NCBI GenBank assembly: GCA_015056565.1
Contig: SVGB01000006.1
Location: 1-64,000, forward strand
DNA: 64,000 bases
DNA from: Butyrivibrio sp.
Lineage (GTDB): Bacteria; Bacillota; Clostridia; Lachnospirales; Lachnospiraceae
Direction: 5' to 3'
The position numbers were made by a program, and so were the translations under genes. The notes below the pieces were generated by a model. The model was not told the DNA's origin. It saw only the letters and a program-made list of their open reading frames with translations, and made no database searches. Below, piece by piece: positions 58,259 to 62,730 of the stretch; within the stretch, counting starts at the first letter, position 1, and every line of letters begins with the position of its first letter.

Positions 58259-58564
58259 TTAATTACTCCTGTCTTCCTTCATTGTCTGCTGTCCACTGGC
58301 GCGGATAACTTTTATTCCTTCAATAGCAACCTGATATATCATTGCCATTTCTCTGGAAGCAGGGTCTGTATAGCTGCATTTTGATTTCAGATTCTTAAAA
58401 TACTGCTCCGCCTTCTCAATGACTGGCTTGGTGATCATGATACCATCACAATAAAGAGTTCCTGTCTGAGCATCATACCTTGACTCAGTGTATTTTGTCT
58501 GTGCAAAATCTCCAGCTCCCATCTTGGCTGCAAGCTGATTGATAAGTTCTTCTCTTCCCGCCAT
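58259..58564 (-). CDS. Small protein of unknown function upstream of the EAL gene
   Basis: A 101-residue protein not recognised: MAGREELINQLAAKMGAGDF, then DAQTGTLYCDGIMI and a helical C-terminus. AAGGAG precedes the ATG. It abuts the GGDEF-EAL gene by one base, so it may act with that enzyme. A TATAAT -10 box on the minus strand (58625-58620) lies about 55 bases upstream. Confidence 0.62.
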   Translation of the reverse strand: MAGREELINQLAAKMGAGDFAQTKYTESRYDAQTGTLYCDGIMITKPVIEKAEQYFKNLKSKCSYTDPASREMAMIYQVAIEGIKVIRASGQQTMKEDRSN

Positions 58565-58728
58565 GTCAATCTCCTTAAAGTGTTTTTTGTAATATCATAA
58601 TAGCGTTAATATCATACATATTATAATATCACGTTATGATATATAGCATGTGTTATTCATGATGAAAGAATCCTTAATCTTTTATAAAATTTTATATTAT
58701 TTTAATACTATTTTTTGAACATTTAGTA
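58565..58728. other. Very AT-rich intergenic stretch with palindromes
   Basis: This gap between the divergent transcripts holds ATATTATAATAT (58618-58629, perfect palindrome), TATCA/TGATA inverted pairs around 58626-58641 and ATATCATAA/TTATGATAT arms. The TATAAT inside the first palindrome is a likely -10 box for the minus-strand gene. No gene is visible. Confidence 0.45.
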
Positions 58729-58734
58729 TATAAT
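58729..58734 (+). promoter_or_regulatory. -10 box TATAAT of the feoAB transcript
   Basis: TATAAT at 58729-58734 is the only good -10 match before the structured leader. No -35 box fits at the usual distance, which hints at activator dependence or another regulator. Confidence 0.5.
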
Positions 58735-58782
58735 TCCCGTATAGAGCACAAGATGTTGTATTTTGTGGATCAGGAGGGGTGT

Positions 58783-58836
58783 ATGGAATTAGAAATAATA
58801 TCCATAAGGGGAGTTAGCTTGCGTCACTGCAGCTGA
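58783..58836 (+). CDS. Candidate 17-residue leader peptide upstream of feoAB
   Basis: ATG 58783 is five bases after AGGAGG (58772-58777), one of the strongest ribosome sites in the window. It reads MELEIISIRGVSLRHCS and stops at TGA (58834-58836). The last codons (Arg, His, Cys, Ser) lie inside a hairpin (58813-58837) that overlaps the antiterminator candidate. This is what a translation-controlled attenuator looks like. I know no characterised peptide with this sequence, and the frame could be chance. Confidence 0.5.
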   Translation: MELEIISIRGVSLRHCS

Positions 58837-58891
58837 CTTCCAAAGCGTAGAACTTTTTTCTACCGAATGGACGCCCTATACAGGGCATGGA
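58795..58891 (+). ncRNA. Structured 5' leader of feoAB, possible riboswitch
   Basis: Three hairpins can be drawn: GTTAGC-T-TGC/GCA-GCTGAC (58813-58837), GTAGAA/TTCTAC (58847-58863) and GCCCT-ATAC-AGGGC (58873-58886). TCCAT (58801-58805) can pair with ATGGA at 58867-58871 or 58887-58891 to close a multi-branch junction. Fe(II)-sensing members of the NiCo riboswitch class precede feoAB genes in Clostridia, and the AAGGGGAGTTAGC stretch recalls the Mn riboswitch, but I cannot match either consensus. Confidence 0.45.
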
Positions 58892-58921
58892 AAGAGCTGG
58901 CTTCTATACCAGCTCTTTTAT
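58891..58921 (+). terminator. Attenuator-type terminator in the feoAB leader
   Basis: AAAGAGCTGG (58891-58900) pairs with CCAGCTCTTT (58909-58918) around an eight-base loop and runs into TTTTATT. It lies 46 bases before the feoAB start and would stop transcription unless disrupted. GGAA-AG-AGCT (58889-58898) can instead pair with AGCT-GAC-TTCC (58831-58841) at the end of the leader peptide frame. Confidence 0.72.
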
Positions 58922-58966
58922 TGTGCCTTAAAATGTGGTATTTTCTATGATAAGAGGAAAACAAAT

Positions 58967-61309
58967 ATGAATTTAAACACATTAAAACCGGGTCAGTCAG
59001 CCCGGATTCTTACTGTAGGGGGTCAGGGAGCCCTCCGTCAGCACTTTCTTGATATGGGTGTTATCCCAGGAGCAGAAGTAACCACAATTAAATTTGCACC
59101 TTTGGGTGATCCGATGGAACTTAGGATCCATGGCTACGAACTCACTCTGCGCCTTGCTGACGCACAGCAAATAGAAATAGAGCCTATCGAAAAGAGTACT
59201 TCAGAGGATGAAGCCCCAAAGACCTTAAAGCGCACTGAGCACCCTGGTCTTGGTGAGGAAGGCAGATTTCACCCAAAGGGAAGCGGCGATCCACTTCCTG
59301 CAGGCACAACACTTACCTTTGCCCTGGTAGGCAATCAGAACAGCGGCAAGACTTCTCTTTTCAACCAGCTCACAGGCTCCAACCAGCACGTAGGCAATTT
59401 CCCTGGAGTTACTGTAGACAGAAAAGATGGCGTGATCCGTGGTCATGAGGATACCCTTATCACAGACCTTCCAGGAATCTACTCCATGTCTCCATATTCC
59501 AGCGAGGAGCAGGTTTCCAGAAACTTCGTCCTTGAGGAGAAGCCTAAGGGCATAATTAATATCGTTGATGCCACTAACATAGAGCGCAATCTTTATCTGA
59601 CAATGCAGCTTCTTAGGATGAACATCCCTATGGTTGTTGCTCTTAACATGATGGATGAAATGCGCGGAAATGGCGGAACTGTGGACGTCAACACCATGGA
59701 GGCAATGCTTGGTGTCCCTGTCGTTCCCATTTCAGCTGCCAAAAACGAAGGTGTAGACGAACTTGTTCGCCATGCCATCCACGTGGCTCGAAACCAGGAA
59801 CGCCCAATCCCGCAGGATTTCTGTAGTCCGGACGACAGAGGCGGCGCTGTACACAGAGCATTCCACGCTGTGAGCCACCTCATAGAGGACCATGCCGCAG
59901 CAGCTGATATTCCTGTCGGTTTTGCTGCCAGCAAGCTCATTGAGGGCGAAGCTGAAATGGCTGACAAGTTAAAGCTGGATACCAATGAGAAAGAGCTCCT
60001 TGAACACATCATCCTTCAGATGGAAAAAGAATGCGGACTTGACCACAGTGCAGCTGTAGCCAACATGCGCTTTGACTACATAAAAAGAGTTTGTGACAGC
60101 TGCGTCATTAAGCCCCATGTAAGCAAAGAGCATATAAGAAGCCAGAAGATTGACAAAGCTCTCACTGGAAGATATACTGCAATACCGATGTTTATTGGCA
60201 TCATGGCACTTGTCTTTTACCTGACCTTCTTCCTGATAGGACCATTTTTCCAGGGTCTGTTAGAGATAGCCATAGATTCATTAAAAGAACTTATTCACTC
60301 CACAATGGTAATGACCGGAGTAAATGCCACTATCCAGAGTCTTATTCTTGACGGAATATTCGAAGGTGTTGGCACTGTTGTCAGCTTCCTTCCCATCATA
60401 GTCATCCTGTTCTTCTTCCTGTCCATGCTGGAAGATAGCGGATATATTGCAAGAGTTGCCTTTGTCATGGATAAGCTCCTAAGGCATATGGGTCTTTCAG
60501 GCCGCAGTATCGTGCCAATGCTTCTTGGTTTTGGCTGCACAGTACCTGCAGTTATGTCCACAAGGACTCTTCCAAGTGAGCGTGACCGCAAGATGACAAT
60601 ACTTTTGACACCATTTATGTCCTGTACTGCCAAACTCCCTATCTACGGCTTTTTTGTAGCGGCATTTTTCCCAAAGCAGAGTTGGATCATCATCACGGGA
60701 TTGTACCTGCTTGGCATATTTACTGCTATCCTTATGGCGTATCTCTTAAAAAATACACTATTTAAGGGTGAAGCTGTGCCCTTTGTAATGGAGCTGCCAA
60801 ATTACCGTATACCAACTCCAAGGAGCGTGATACTTCTTTTGTGGGAAAAAGCTAAGGACTTCCTTAGCCGCGCCTTTTCAATAATCCTGGTTGCAACCAT
60901 TGTCGTATGGTTCCTTAAGAGCTTTGATTTTGGTCTGAACCTGGTGGCAGACTCACGCAGCAGCATATTGGCTGCAATCTCTGGCATACTTGTGCCTGTT
61001 ATGAGGCCAATTGGCCTCGGAGACTGGAGGATCGTAACCTCACTTGTCAGCGGATTCATGGCAAAAGAGAGTGTTGTTTCTGTTATGGAAACCCTCTTCA
61101 GCGATGGCCTTGCATCCCTTGGAGCTCTGTCAGCCGCATCAATGCTGACATTCAGTCTCCTCTACACCCCTTGTGTTGCCGCTGTGGCAGCAATATCAAG
61201 AGAACTTGGAAAAAAATGGGCTCTCTGTGTAGTTTTGTGGCAGTGCAGTGTCGCATGGCTCGCAGCCCTTATTGTTAGACTTATCGGAATGGCTTTAGGA
61301 ATGCAGTAA
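58967..61309 (+). CDS. feoB: Fused FeoA-FeoB ferrous iron transporter
   Basis: A 780-residue iron(II) uptake protein. Residues 1-75 are a FeoA SH3-like domain (LRQHFLDMGVIPGAEVT); about 76-112 a linker; about 115-285 the FeoB G domain with G1 GNQNSGKTSLFNQLTG, G2 region VTVDRKDG, G3 DLPGIYSM and G4 NMMDE; and 395-780 the membrane domain with the Gate motif GFGCTVPAVMSTRTL and a second gate near TPCVAAVAAI. The fusion fixes a 1:1 FeoA:FeoB ratio. AGAGGA precedes the ATG. It is controlled by the leader and overlaps the MATE gene by one base. Confidence 0.95.
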   Translation: MNLNTLKPGQSARILTVGGQGALRQHFLDMGVIPGAEVTTIKFAPLGDPMELRIHGYELTLRLADAQQIEIEPIEKSTSEDEAPKTLKRTEHPGLGEEGRFHPKGSGDPLPAGTTLTFALVGNQNSGKTSLFNQLTGSNQHVGNFPGVTVDRKDGVIRGHEDTLITDLPGIYSMSPYSSEEQVSRNFVLEEKPKGIINIVDATNIERNLYLTMQLLRMNIPMVVALNMMDEMRGNGGTVDVNTMEAMLGVPVVPISAAKNEGVDELVRHAIHVARNQERPIPQDFCSPDDRGGAVHRAFHAVSHLIEDHAAAADIPVGFAASKLIEGEAEMADKLKLDTNEKELLEHIILQMEKECGLDHSAAVANMRFDYIKRVCDSCVIKPHVSKEHIRSQKIDKALTGRYTAIPMFIGIMALVFYLTFFLIGPFFQGLLEIAIDSLKELIHSTMVMTGVNATIQSLILDGIFEGVGTVVSFLPIIVILFFFLSMLEDSGYIARVAFVMDKLLRHMGLSGRSIVPMLLGFGCTVPAVMSTRTLPSERDRKMTILLTPFMSCTAKLPIYGFFVAAFFPKQSWIIITGLYLLGIFTAILMAYLLKNTLFKGEAVPFVMELPNYRIPTPRSVILLLWEKAKDFLSRAFSIILVATIVVWFLKSFDFGLNLVADSRSSILAAISGILVPVMRPIGLGDWRIVTSLVSGFMAKESVVSVMETLFSDGLASLGALSAASMLTFSLLYTPCVAAVAAISRELGKKWALCVVLWQCSVAWLAALIVRLIGMALGMQ

Positions 61310-62730
61310 TGAAAGTAGATTATTTTGAGAAGATTCGAAATGGCGAGGAAATGACTTTTGCTGAGCAGATTGTGATGATCACAATGCTCAGTATTCCCGC
61401 TATCTTTTCACAGATTTCCACAGTGATAATGGAATATGTTGACCAGTCGATGGTTGGAAGGCTTGGCGCAGACCCTTCAGCTGCCATTGGCCTTGTTTCT
61501 TCCACCACCTGGCTCATTGGCGGCATCTGCAATGCAGTCAGCATGGGATTTACCGTTCAGGTGGCACACAGCATAGGCGCCAAGAATGATGTCAAAGCCC
61601 GCGGAATCGTAAAGCACGGCCTTCTGGCTGTTCTTTGCTTCAGCCTTACCATCGGACTTATTTGCCTTGCTATCAGCAAAAAACTTCCATTCTGGCTTGG
61701 AGGAAATGAAACAATAGCCGGCGGAGCTACCACATATTTTCGCATTTTCGGCGCTGCCCTGCCACTTATCCATCTGTGCGGCGTAACTTCCGGAATGCTT
61801 CAGTGCAGCGGCAATATACGTACTCCCAGCATCCTCAATGTGATTGGATGCTTCCTTAACGTATTTTTCAACTTTATTTTGATCTTCCCCACAAGACCTG
61901 CCACAATCCTTGGAAAAGAGCTGACAATCCCCGGTGCAGGACTCGGAATAGCCGGAGCAGCCCTTGGTACCGCTATGTCTGAAGGATTCATAGCGGTTGT
62001 TATGTTATATTTCCTGCTTGTTCGCTCTCCTCTTTTACATCTTCGCAAGGAGGCCAGGGTACCATTTACCCTTAACGAACTTCAAACAGCAGTCAAGATT
62101 GCAATCCCTGTTGGTATTGAGCAGGGAATCATGGGAATTGGCTACGTTATGGTCACCAAAATTGTATCTCCCCTTGGTAACATAGCTCTTGCCGCCAACT
62201 CTTTTTCAATTACAGCAGAGGGACTTTGCTACATGCCTGGATATGGCATAGCCAGCGCCGCCACAGCCATCATAGGTCAGACACTTGGCGCAGGAAGAAA
62301 AAAGCTGGCAAACCGCCTGGGATGGCTTGCAACAGCTCTTGGAATGCTTGTTATGACAGGAACCGGTATCCTGATGTATATATTTGCTCCGCAGCTTCTT
62401 GGCCTCATGACAAAGGACCCGGAGATCCAGGCTCTTGGCGTAAAAGTCCTTCGTATTGAAGCATTTGCAGAGCCTATGTTCGCCGCATCTATCGTAGGAA
62501 CTGGAGTATTTAGAGGTGCAGGAGACACTCTTGGCCCATCAGTCATCAATTTCATCAGTATGTGGGCAGTGCGCCTTACCCTTGCGTCAATCCTTGCTCC
62601 AAGGATCGGTCTGCCCGGTGTATGGACAGCCATGTGCATTGATATCATCGTAAGAGGAGCTTTATTCCTTCTTCGTCTGTATCTAAAGCCCGTAAGCAGC
62701 TCAAAAATTGTGAAGGCTCAGTTACAGTAG
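61309..62730 (+). CDS. MATE-family efflux transporter
   Basis: A 473-residue protein with 12 hydrophobic segments and two homologous halves. Features are SIPAIFSQISTVIMEYVDQSMVGRLG in the first helix pair (seen in parts), GMLQCSGNIRTP and GVFRGAGDTLGP at the equivalent place in the second half. It would export organic cations or drugs using Na+ or H+. Its ATG overlaps the feoAB stop (TAATG), so it is under the same leader; a link to iron chelates or metal-bound compounds is inference. It ends tail to tail with a GNAT gene, overlapping by nine bases. Confidence 0.92.
   Translation: MKVDYFEKIRNGEEMTFAEQIVMITMLSIPAIFSQISTVIMEYVDQSMVGRLGADPSAAIGLVSSTTWLIGGICNAVSMGFTVQVAHSIGAKNDVKARGIVKHGLLAVLCFSLTIGLICLAISKKLPFWLGGNETIAGGATTYFRIFGAALPLIHLCGVTSGMLQCSGNIRTPSILNVIGCFLNVFFNFILIFPTRPATILGKELTIPGAGLGIAGAALGTAMSEGFIAVVMLYFLLVRSPLLHLRKEARVPFTLNELQTAVKIAIPVGIEQGIMGIGYVMVTKIVSPLGNIALAANSFSITAEGLCYMPGYGIASAATAIIGQTLGAGRKKLANRLGWLATALGMLVMTGTGILMYIFAPQLLGLMTKDPEIQALGVKVLRIEAFAEPMFAASIVGTGVFRGAGDTLGPSVINFISMWAVRLTLASILAPRIGLPGVWTAMCIDIIVRGALFLLRLYLKPVSSSKIVKAQLQ

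Follow-up and report, generated by a model that had tools for sequence, protein, structure and literature searches.

A structured leader with an embedded short reading frame, a candidate cis-acting RNA, upstream of feoAB in three Butyrivibrio species

The feoAB locus and its upstream region

The window analyzed here is a 64,000-nucleotide stretch of contig SVGB01000006.1 (Butyrivibrio sp., assembly GCA_015056565.1). It carries a gene for a FeoA-FeoB fusion followed by one for a MATE family transporter and, upstream on the opposite strand, an ORF of 101 amino acids; between that ORF and feoAB lies the leader that is the subject of this report (Table 1). The same leader occurs directly upstream of feoAB in two other genomes of the genus, so that comparisons below are among three species: the window genome (G000), G028, and Butyrivibrio sp. 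CB08 (G075).

Table 1. Coordinates of the leader and of the neighboring genes in the window
Feature	Position	Strand	Basis and remarks
Divergent ORF, 101 aa	58259-58564	-	Leader lies between this ORF and feoAB
Candidate -10 hexamers	TATAAT 58729-58734; TATAGA 58740-58745	+	Read from the sequence; weak
P0 hairpin, 9 pairs	58747-58767	+	Near 5' end of presumed transcript; 100% of cells paired
Shine-Dalgarno AGGAGG of leader frame	58772-58777	+	Sequence; last two bases inside P1
Four-way junction P1-P4	58776-58877	+	Closed by P1 (58776-58782 with 58871-58877); MFE in 2/3 species and alignment consensus
P2	58783-58805	+	Consensus fold; GNRA tetraloop 58792-58795, one-base bulge
Leader reading frame, 17 codons	58783-58836	+	Sequence; ATG 58783-58785, stop TGA 58834-58836
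P3 hairpin over frame end, 12 pairs	58809-58841	+	Fold; loop GUCACU invariant
P4 hairpin GUAGAA/UUCUAC	58847-58863	+	Stem invariant; loop length and sequence variable
Alternative hairpin GCCC..GGGC	58873-58886	+	Mutually exclusive with P1; stem invariant, loop variable
Intrinsic-terminator-like hairpin, 11 pairs	58890-58919	+	Fold; U-rich 3' arm
FeoA-FeoB fusion, 780 aa	58967-61309	+	Pfam FeoA 1.7e-19, FeoB_N 8e-65, Gate, FeoB_C
MATE family transporter	61309-62730	+	Pfam MatE 4.1e-54; start overlaps feoAB stop

An earlier, sequence-only reading of this region had described an AGGAGG placed five bases before an ATG at 58783 and a 17-codon frame running to 58836, and each of these elements is present in the sequence. 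By comparison, dinucleotide shuffling of 58743-58966 produced an AGGAGG 4-10 nt ahead of an ATG frame of at least 10 codons 36 times in 5000. The peptide encoded would be MELEIISIRGVSLRHCS in the window, and MELEIISIEGVNLRHCS and MELAIISIRKVNLRHCS in the other two species. On the promoter side, the first candidate -10 hexamer is identical in all three species and the second reads TATAAA in the CB08 alignment; a promoter scan of the window reported neither (58729-58745).

The promoter side (58600-58735) is in part well conserved. It contains a palindrome, TATAAAATTTTATA, with one end base different in CB08, and a second element, ATATCACGTTATGATAT, that differs by one base in G028 and is not kept in CB08. 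Judged by their sequence, both look like operator sites for a putative regulator. The divergent 101-aa ORF has no Pfam family over cut-off. Of the 79 genus genomes, 64 carry relatives of it, often in several copies; a by-eye comparison of a few genomes (e.g., G012, G065, G071, G076) did not find these beside feoAB.

Predicted fold of the leader

Folding of 58745-58930 gives a minimum free energy (MFE) of -71.9 kcal/mol (z = -5.9; none of 200 shuffles as good), and the structure comprises the P0 hairpin, a four-way junction of helices P1-P4, and the terminator-like hairpin. The G028 leader has the same fold (z = -4.4). In CB08 the MFE structure is different (z = -4.7) and lacks the junction, one mismatch having broken a pair and weakened P1. 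The consensus fold of the three-species alignment has 60 pairs with 98.9% of cells paired and two cells broken; when pairing partners are slid, pairing drops to 42-55%, part of which is expected because the fold was derived from the same sequences. The alignment includes only two indels, both in loops. Two pairs changed on both sides (an A-U to G-C in P3 and a U-A to C-G in the terminator-like hairpin), but 57 of 500 shuffles scored as high, so that covariation alone does not prove the fold. More generally, structural inference is limited because there are three sequences and all are from close relatives.

Individual helices are well kept. Eight of the nine P0 pairs are invariant, and the only variable sites of P2 are the bulge and the N of the tetraloop (GAAA, GAAA, and GCAA across the three species). 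The sequence-only reading had placed a hairpin at 58813-58837, over the last codons of the frame; it exists, and in the full fold it forms the middle of the longer helix P3, in which 7 pairs are invariant, 3 have one-side changes, 1 has the both-side change, and 1 is broken in CB08. The same reading had called a clear terminator just downstream. A conserved hairpin does stand there, with a core pair probability of ~1.0 in all three species, but the U-run is short (UUUU mostly within the stem, then AUU) and a simple terminator scanner reported the hairpin at only one of the three loci; we refer to it as terminator-like.

Distribution among genomes

A FeoB-like match (E up to 1e-100) was found in 67 of 79 genomes of the genus, which together include 58 loci with full-length FeoAB fusions of at least 63% identity. 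The leader is present at three of these loci, in 3/79 genomes, and was not seen at the other 55, of which 27 were inspected by eye; all 58 were scanned for the Shine-Dalgarno-ATG-frame arrangement, which was confined to the three leader loci (one scanned locus, L025, has only 20 nt of upstream sequence). Even for a FeoAB that is 83% identical (G002), there was no leader model match and the upstream stretch looks unrelated. Partial FeoAB loci that retain the N terminus (G009 contig 27 and G095 contig 75) are outside this upstream comparison. In the genus survey, one FeoAB match (G069, L037) was seen to contain one in-frame TGA.

A DNA search with the leader across 61 genomes returned, besides the window's own copy, one strong relative (G028, 93%) and six short matches (E 0.0009-0.0096). 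A covariance model of the leader (R1) recovered the same three species from the 79 genus genomes and gave no convincing match in 397 genomes of the family; a core model (R2) gave nothing convincing besides G000 and G075 in 392 genomes of the order, and it too had only weak matches beyond the three species in the 79 genus genomes. It should be noted that the R1 and R2 genome searches scored limited candidates per genome under stricter filters, so weak homologues may escape. With filters off, R1 reached a best E value of 0.88 over 40 feoAB-region loci, a set that does not include 15 further loci (L024-L038). Two weak matches, in G098 (E = 0.008) and G769 (E = 0.025), fall within long ORFs, antisense and sense, and were taken as chance; further weak R1/R2 matches occur in G086, G009, G291, G471, G066, G017, G705, G671, and G581. 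Searches for the leader in plasmids and phages gave no match, nor did a search of viral contigs with one exact pattern. The exact pattern AGGAGGGGTGTATGGAATTA hit two records among genome contigs, the G028 and G075 relatives. Because it is confined to 3/79 genus genomes with no convincing matches in the family or order, the leader appears to be a young or clade-restricted element, judged from three species and without a tree.

Conservation of RNA versus peptide

The window and CB08 leaders agree in 118 of 135 columns (87%), compared with 188 of 343 fourfold sites (55%) in the feoAB genes that follow them, where first plus second positions agree at 93.5%. By this comparison, strong purifying selection acts on the leader. 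Variable columns are about as frequent inside the frame (10/54) as outside it (14/94; p = 0.64), and their distribution over codon positions is unlike that of a gene: in the frame 3, 5, and 2 of 18 sites each vary at the first, second, and third positions, compared with 75, 40, and 422 of 780 each in feoAB. Third positions thus vary less in the frame (2/18 vs. 422/780; p = 4e-4), and first plus second positions vary more (8/36 vs. 115/1560; p = 0.005). Synonymous substitution, which the sequence-only reading had proposed looking for as a sign of a selected peptide, is not what the three Butyrivibrio leaders display, given nearly frozen third positions and variable first and second ones. The other sign it named, a conserved Arg-His-Cys-Ser (RHCS) end, is there: RHCS, the Shine-Dalgarno sequence, and the start and stop are kept in all three species, but long stretches outside the frame are equally unchanged.

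Several of the changes that did occur are compatible with the RNA fold, including the two both-side pair changes noted above. In the frame, a GAA to GCA codon change falls on the N of the GNRA tetraloop, which remains GNRA, an ATA to ATC change is the P2 bulge, and the TGA to TAA change of stop replaces U-G by U-A at one position of P3. At the amino acid level the differences are E/A, R/E, G/K, and S/N. Scattering these substitutions at random yields somewhat more amino acid changes than are seen (P = 0.31, 0.045, and 0.039), in part because several changes share one codon; given these values, there may be weak constraint on the peptide. Overall, the frame does not change in the manner of coding sequence, and the RNA is seemingly protected more than the peptide. 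The frame may be translated, with the peptide sequence probably not the main target of selection.

A resemblance at MEL.I led us to consider whether the leader peptide derives from FeoA or mimics it. We rejected this: the alignment scores were reached by 818-2128 of 5000 shuffles, and a 27-codon in-frame extension of the frame had no Pfam match in any of the three species.

Candidate switches and antitermination pairings

The sequence-only reading proposed that AGCTGACTTCC, at the end of the frame, pairs with GGAAAGAGCT in the 5' arm of the terminator as an antiterminator. In the window this helix can form at -12.2 kcal/mol, a value that 26 of 1000 shuffles attain, but the two helices that it must replace are both stronger (P3, -18.1 kcal/mol; terminator, -16.8 kcal/mol), and it is not conserved: the relatives have it at -8.7 and -6.7 kcal/mol, which 128 and 173 of 1000 shuffles attain. 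Sixteen helices of at least 5 pairs were found to be kept in all three species. Apart from the terminator itself, those involving its arms are a pairing of the leader Shine-Dalgarno sequence with CUCUUUU (7 pairs, 3 of them G-U, invariant, plus a shifted 5-pair version) and one of CUCUU with AAGAG/GAGAG at the presumed feoA ribosome binding site (5 pairs, one change kept); neither is strong. Also among the 16 are GGAGG of the Shine-Dalgarno sequence with CYUCC on the 3' side of P3, where a U to C change preserves the pairing, and UCCAU with a second, downstream AUGGA. None of the helices searched in the three species is a convincingly conserved antiterminator or alternative pairing of the terminator arms.

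P1 cannot form together with the GCCC/GGGC hairpin, and the two are close in energy (differences of 0.6, 1.0, and 0.2 kcal/mol for the terminated RNA of G000, G028, and G075, respectively), so that the leader RNA could be bistable between them. Ensemble probabilities of P1 and the hairpin in the terminated RNA, for which there is no shuffle null, are 0.73 and 0.26 (G000), 0.87 and 0.05 (G028), and 0.26 and 0.60 (G075). In the read-through RNA, P1 is favored in G000 (0.98) and G028 (0.94), and the hairpin in G075 (0.97 vs. 0.02 for P1). A balanced switch is thus not seen in every species, as G075 favors the hairpin and G028 favors P1. The start codon of the leader frame is predicted to be paired (unpaired probability 0.03-0.04) in eight of nine species-by-length cases, not split by state but regardless of which state is the dominant one, so the P1/hairpin switch does not visibly gate the frame.

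What the leader may control

Few iron-sensing RNAs are known, and feo is usually regulated by Fur. Scored against what we take to be the Fur-box consensus, 12 of 58 feoAB upstream regions have Fur-like boxes of at least 11/14, and the three leader loci reach 8-9 (9-10 over 400 nt); the threshold was set after the scores were seen, and most leaderless loci likewise are without a clear box. Given the low scores at the three leader loci, control of feoAB there by something other than Fur is plausible. Terminator-like hairpins within 250 nt upstream are present at 7 of the 58 feoAB loci, three of which are the leader loci.

A homologue of the window's MATE gene lies downstream of feoAB in the three leader species only, among 30 genus loci compared (over ~1.5 kb downstream, less in some). 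Joint control of iron uptake and MATE expression had been suggested earlier, and this does not generalize: the two genes overlap in the window, but in CB08 (L011:3840-4480) a terminator-like hairpin and a 165-aa ORF on the opposite strand stand between them. The leader's common target would for this reason be feoAB and not the MATE gene.

Interpretation and alternatives

That a regulatory leader precedes feoAB, as first proposed from the sequence, agrees well with the strong conservation, the stable fold, and the conserved terminator-like hairpin. We give an even chance to the interpretation that feoAB transcription is controlled in cis by 58743-58930, a structured orphan RNA that is restricted to one clade and carries a possibly translated frame. 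Under that interpretation, transcription would start at a promoter near 58730 and continue into feoAB, and the RNA would fold into the 5' hairpin and the four-way junction with its GNRA-capped P2. By default, the intrinsic terminator would keep RNA polymerase from reaching feoAB. Sensing would likely fall to the junction, with ferrous iron or an iron-status metabolite as a natural guess, and P1 and the GCCC/GGGC hairpin would be alternative, possibly bistable, states. Occasional translation of the frame, at the least, is probable; its ribosome binding site is perfect and its ATG sits in P2, and a ribosome loading there would unfold both P2 and P3.

The chief competitor, which we consider unlikely, is a stand-alone small RNA that ends at the terminator, possibly dual-function with the 17-aa peptide, with feoAB transcribed from its own promoter downstream. 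It retains that standing because there is no visible route from the P1/hairpin state to the terminator; the near-certain terminator core in all three species and the lack of a convincingly conserved antiterminator also agree with it, as does a stretch, TGNTATTTT, conserved in all three species in the gap between terminator and feoAB (58920-58966), which could presumably be an extended -10. Against this, no good -35 was apparent by eye, three promoter scans gave no promoter-like match between the terminator and feoAB, and the position of the leader upstream of feoAB is fixed in all three species. Attenuation by the leader peptide, the mechanism favored by the sequence-only reading, would let the position of the ribosome at the RHCS codons, or metal binding to the nascent Arg-His-Cys-Ser end, choose between terminator and antiterminator. 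The perfect Shine-Dalgarno sequence, the frame and stop kept in 3/3 species (with TGA to TAA causing no stop loss), the unchanged RHCS, the shortfall of amino acid changes relative to random placement, and the precedent of a metal-responsive upstream frame for copper in the excerpted account of CruR (PMC9426467) all speak for it. The codon-position pattern described above does not, with amino acid replacements beside near-frozen third positions; moreover, no amino acid is repeated in a run in the peptide, and the proposed antiterminator is not conserved, as CB08 does not keep it. We regard this mechanism as improbable.

The remaining two alternatives concern known kinds of RNA. The sequence-only reading had named a known metal riboswitch as the main alternative. 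A riboswitch that has diverged from one of the known metal or cofactor classes could explain a four-way junction ahead of a metal transporter, and the NiCo class is said to sense Fe2+ in the excerpted text of PMC11477304. No family model bears this out, however: at the gathering threshold no Rfam family, including NiCo and yybP-ykoY, matched in the window, and a search of 58300-59300 up to E = 10 found neither of those two, its six matches including no riboswitch. NiCo (RF02683) itself is over cut-off in 3/79 genus genomes, none of them G000, G028, or G075, and on contigs other than those with their feoAB. We thus think membership of a known class very improbable. Slimmer still is the chance of RNA-mediated processive antitermination, in which the folded leader would modify RNA polymerase for read-through of the terminator. 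Known kinds include put RNA, EAR, and LoaP-dependent RNA. Such a mechanism would account for a terminator without a clear competing pairing, but no RNA family described in Rfam was matched, and the analysis covered a single terminator.

Returning to the cis-acting RNA, a bolder version of it would be a new class of iron-status-sensing RNA, with a four-way-junction aptamer around the start of the leader frame, that replaces Fur at feoAB in one Butyrivibrio clade and links intrinsic termination with both junction folding and the entry of ribosomes; this we consider quite unlikely. If the leader is real in the sense proposed, a compact orphan element before a ferrous-iron importer makes RNA-level iron control testable in Butyrivibrio sp. 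CB08, and the frame would be an example of an attenuator-like peptide frame that evolves as RNA.

Comparison with known systems

Among the matches listed from the open-licence literature, as judged by titles and the starts of abstracts, nothing concerned this leader or peptide attenuation of feo. The leader belongs to no class tested and, if our interpretation is right, it would work in the manner of a riboswitch leader that has a reading frame built in. Amino acid leader-peptide attenuators of the trp/his type have a Shine-Dalgarno sequence, a short frame, a hairpin over the frame end, and a terminator. The Butyrivibrio leader shares this layout, but is without a cognate codon run or a conserved antiterminator, and its codon positions are not coding-like. 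The NiCo (czcD) riboswitch is a four-way-junction RNA and in that respect is similar; however, the leader has no covariance-model match to it (RF02683) and carries a frame, and we know of no leader frame as part of the NiCo class.

Other systems combine RNA structure or metal uptake with a short upstream frame. In the excerpted main text on the odc1 and uORFC-6-1 motifs, which were found computationally and contain a short upstream frame (PMC8632094), there is no mention of feo, Butyrivibrio, or Lachnospiraceae; the peptides are described there as conserved (odc1 at most positions, uORFC-6-1 in an Arg-Leu-Arg motif), unlike that of the Butyrivibrio leader. CruR, as the excerpts of PMC9426467 describe it, is likewise encoded by an upstream frame before metal-uptake genes, but it belongs to DUF2946, has a CXXC sensor and, at the C terminus, a RAPP arrest motif, and works with Rho-dependent termination, whereas the Butyrivibrio frame has 17 codons without clear peptide-level conservation and precedes an intrinsic-terminator-like hairpin. 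The M. tuberculosis pe20 Mbox and B12 riboswitches, in the excerpted text of PMC12810186 and PMC11260477, are also folded leaders with a short upstream frame; those systems have known ligands and classes and, at pe20, a Rho-dependent stop, whereas the Butyrivibrio leader has an intrinsic-terminator-like hairpin, matches no known class, and carries its frame inside the junction.
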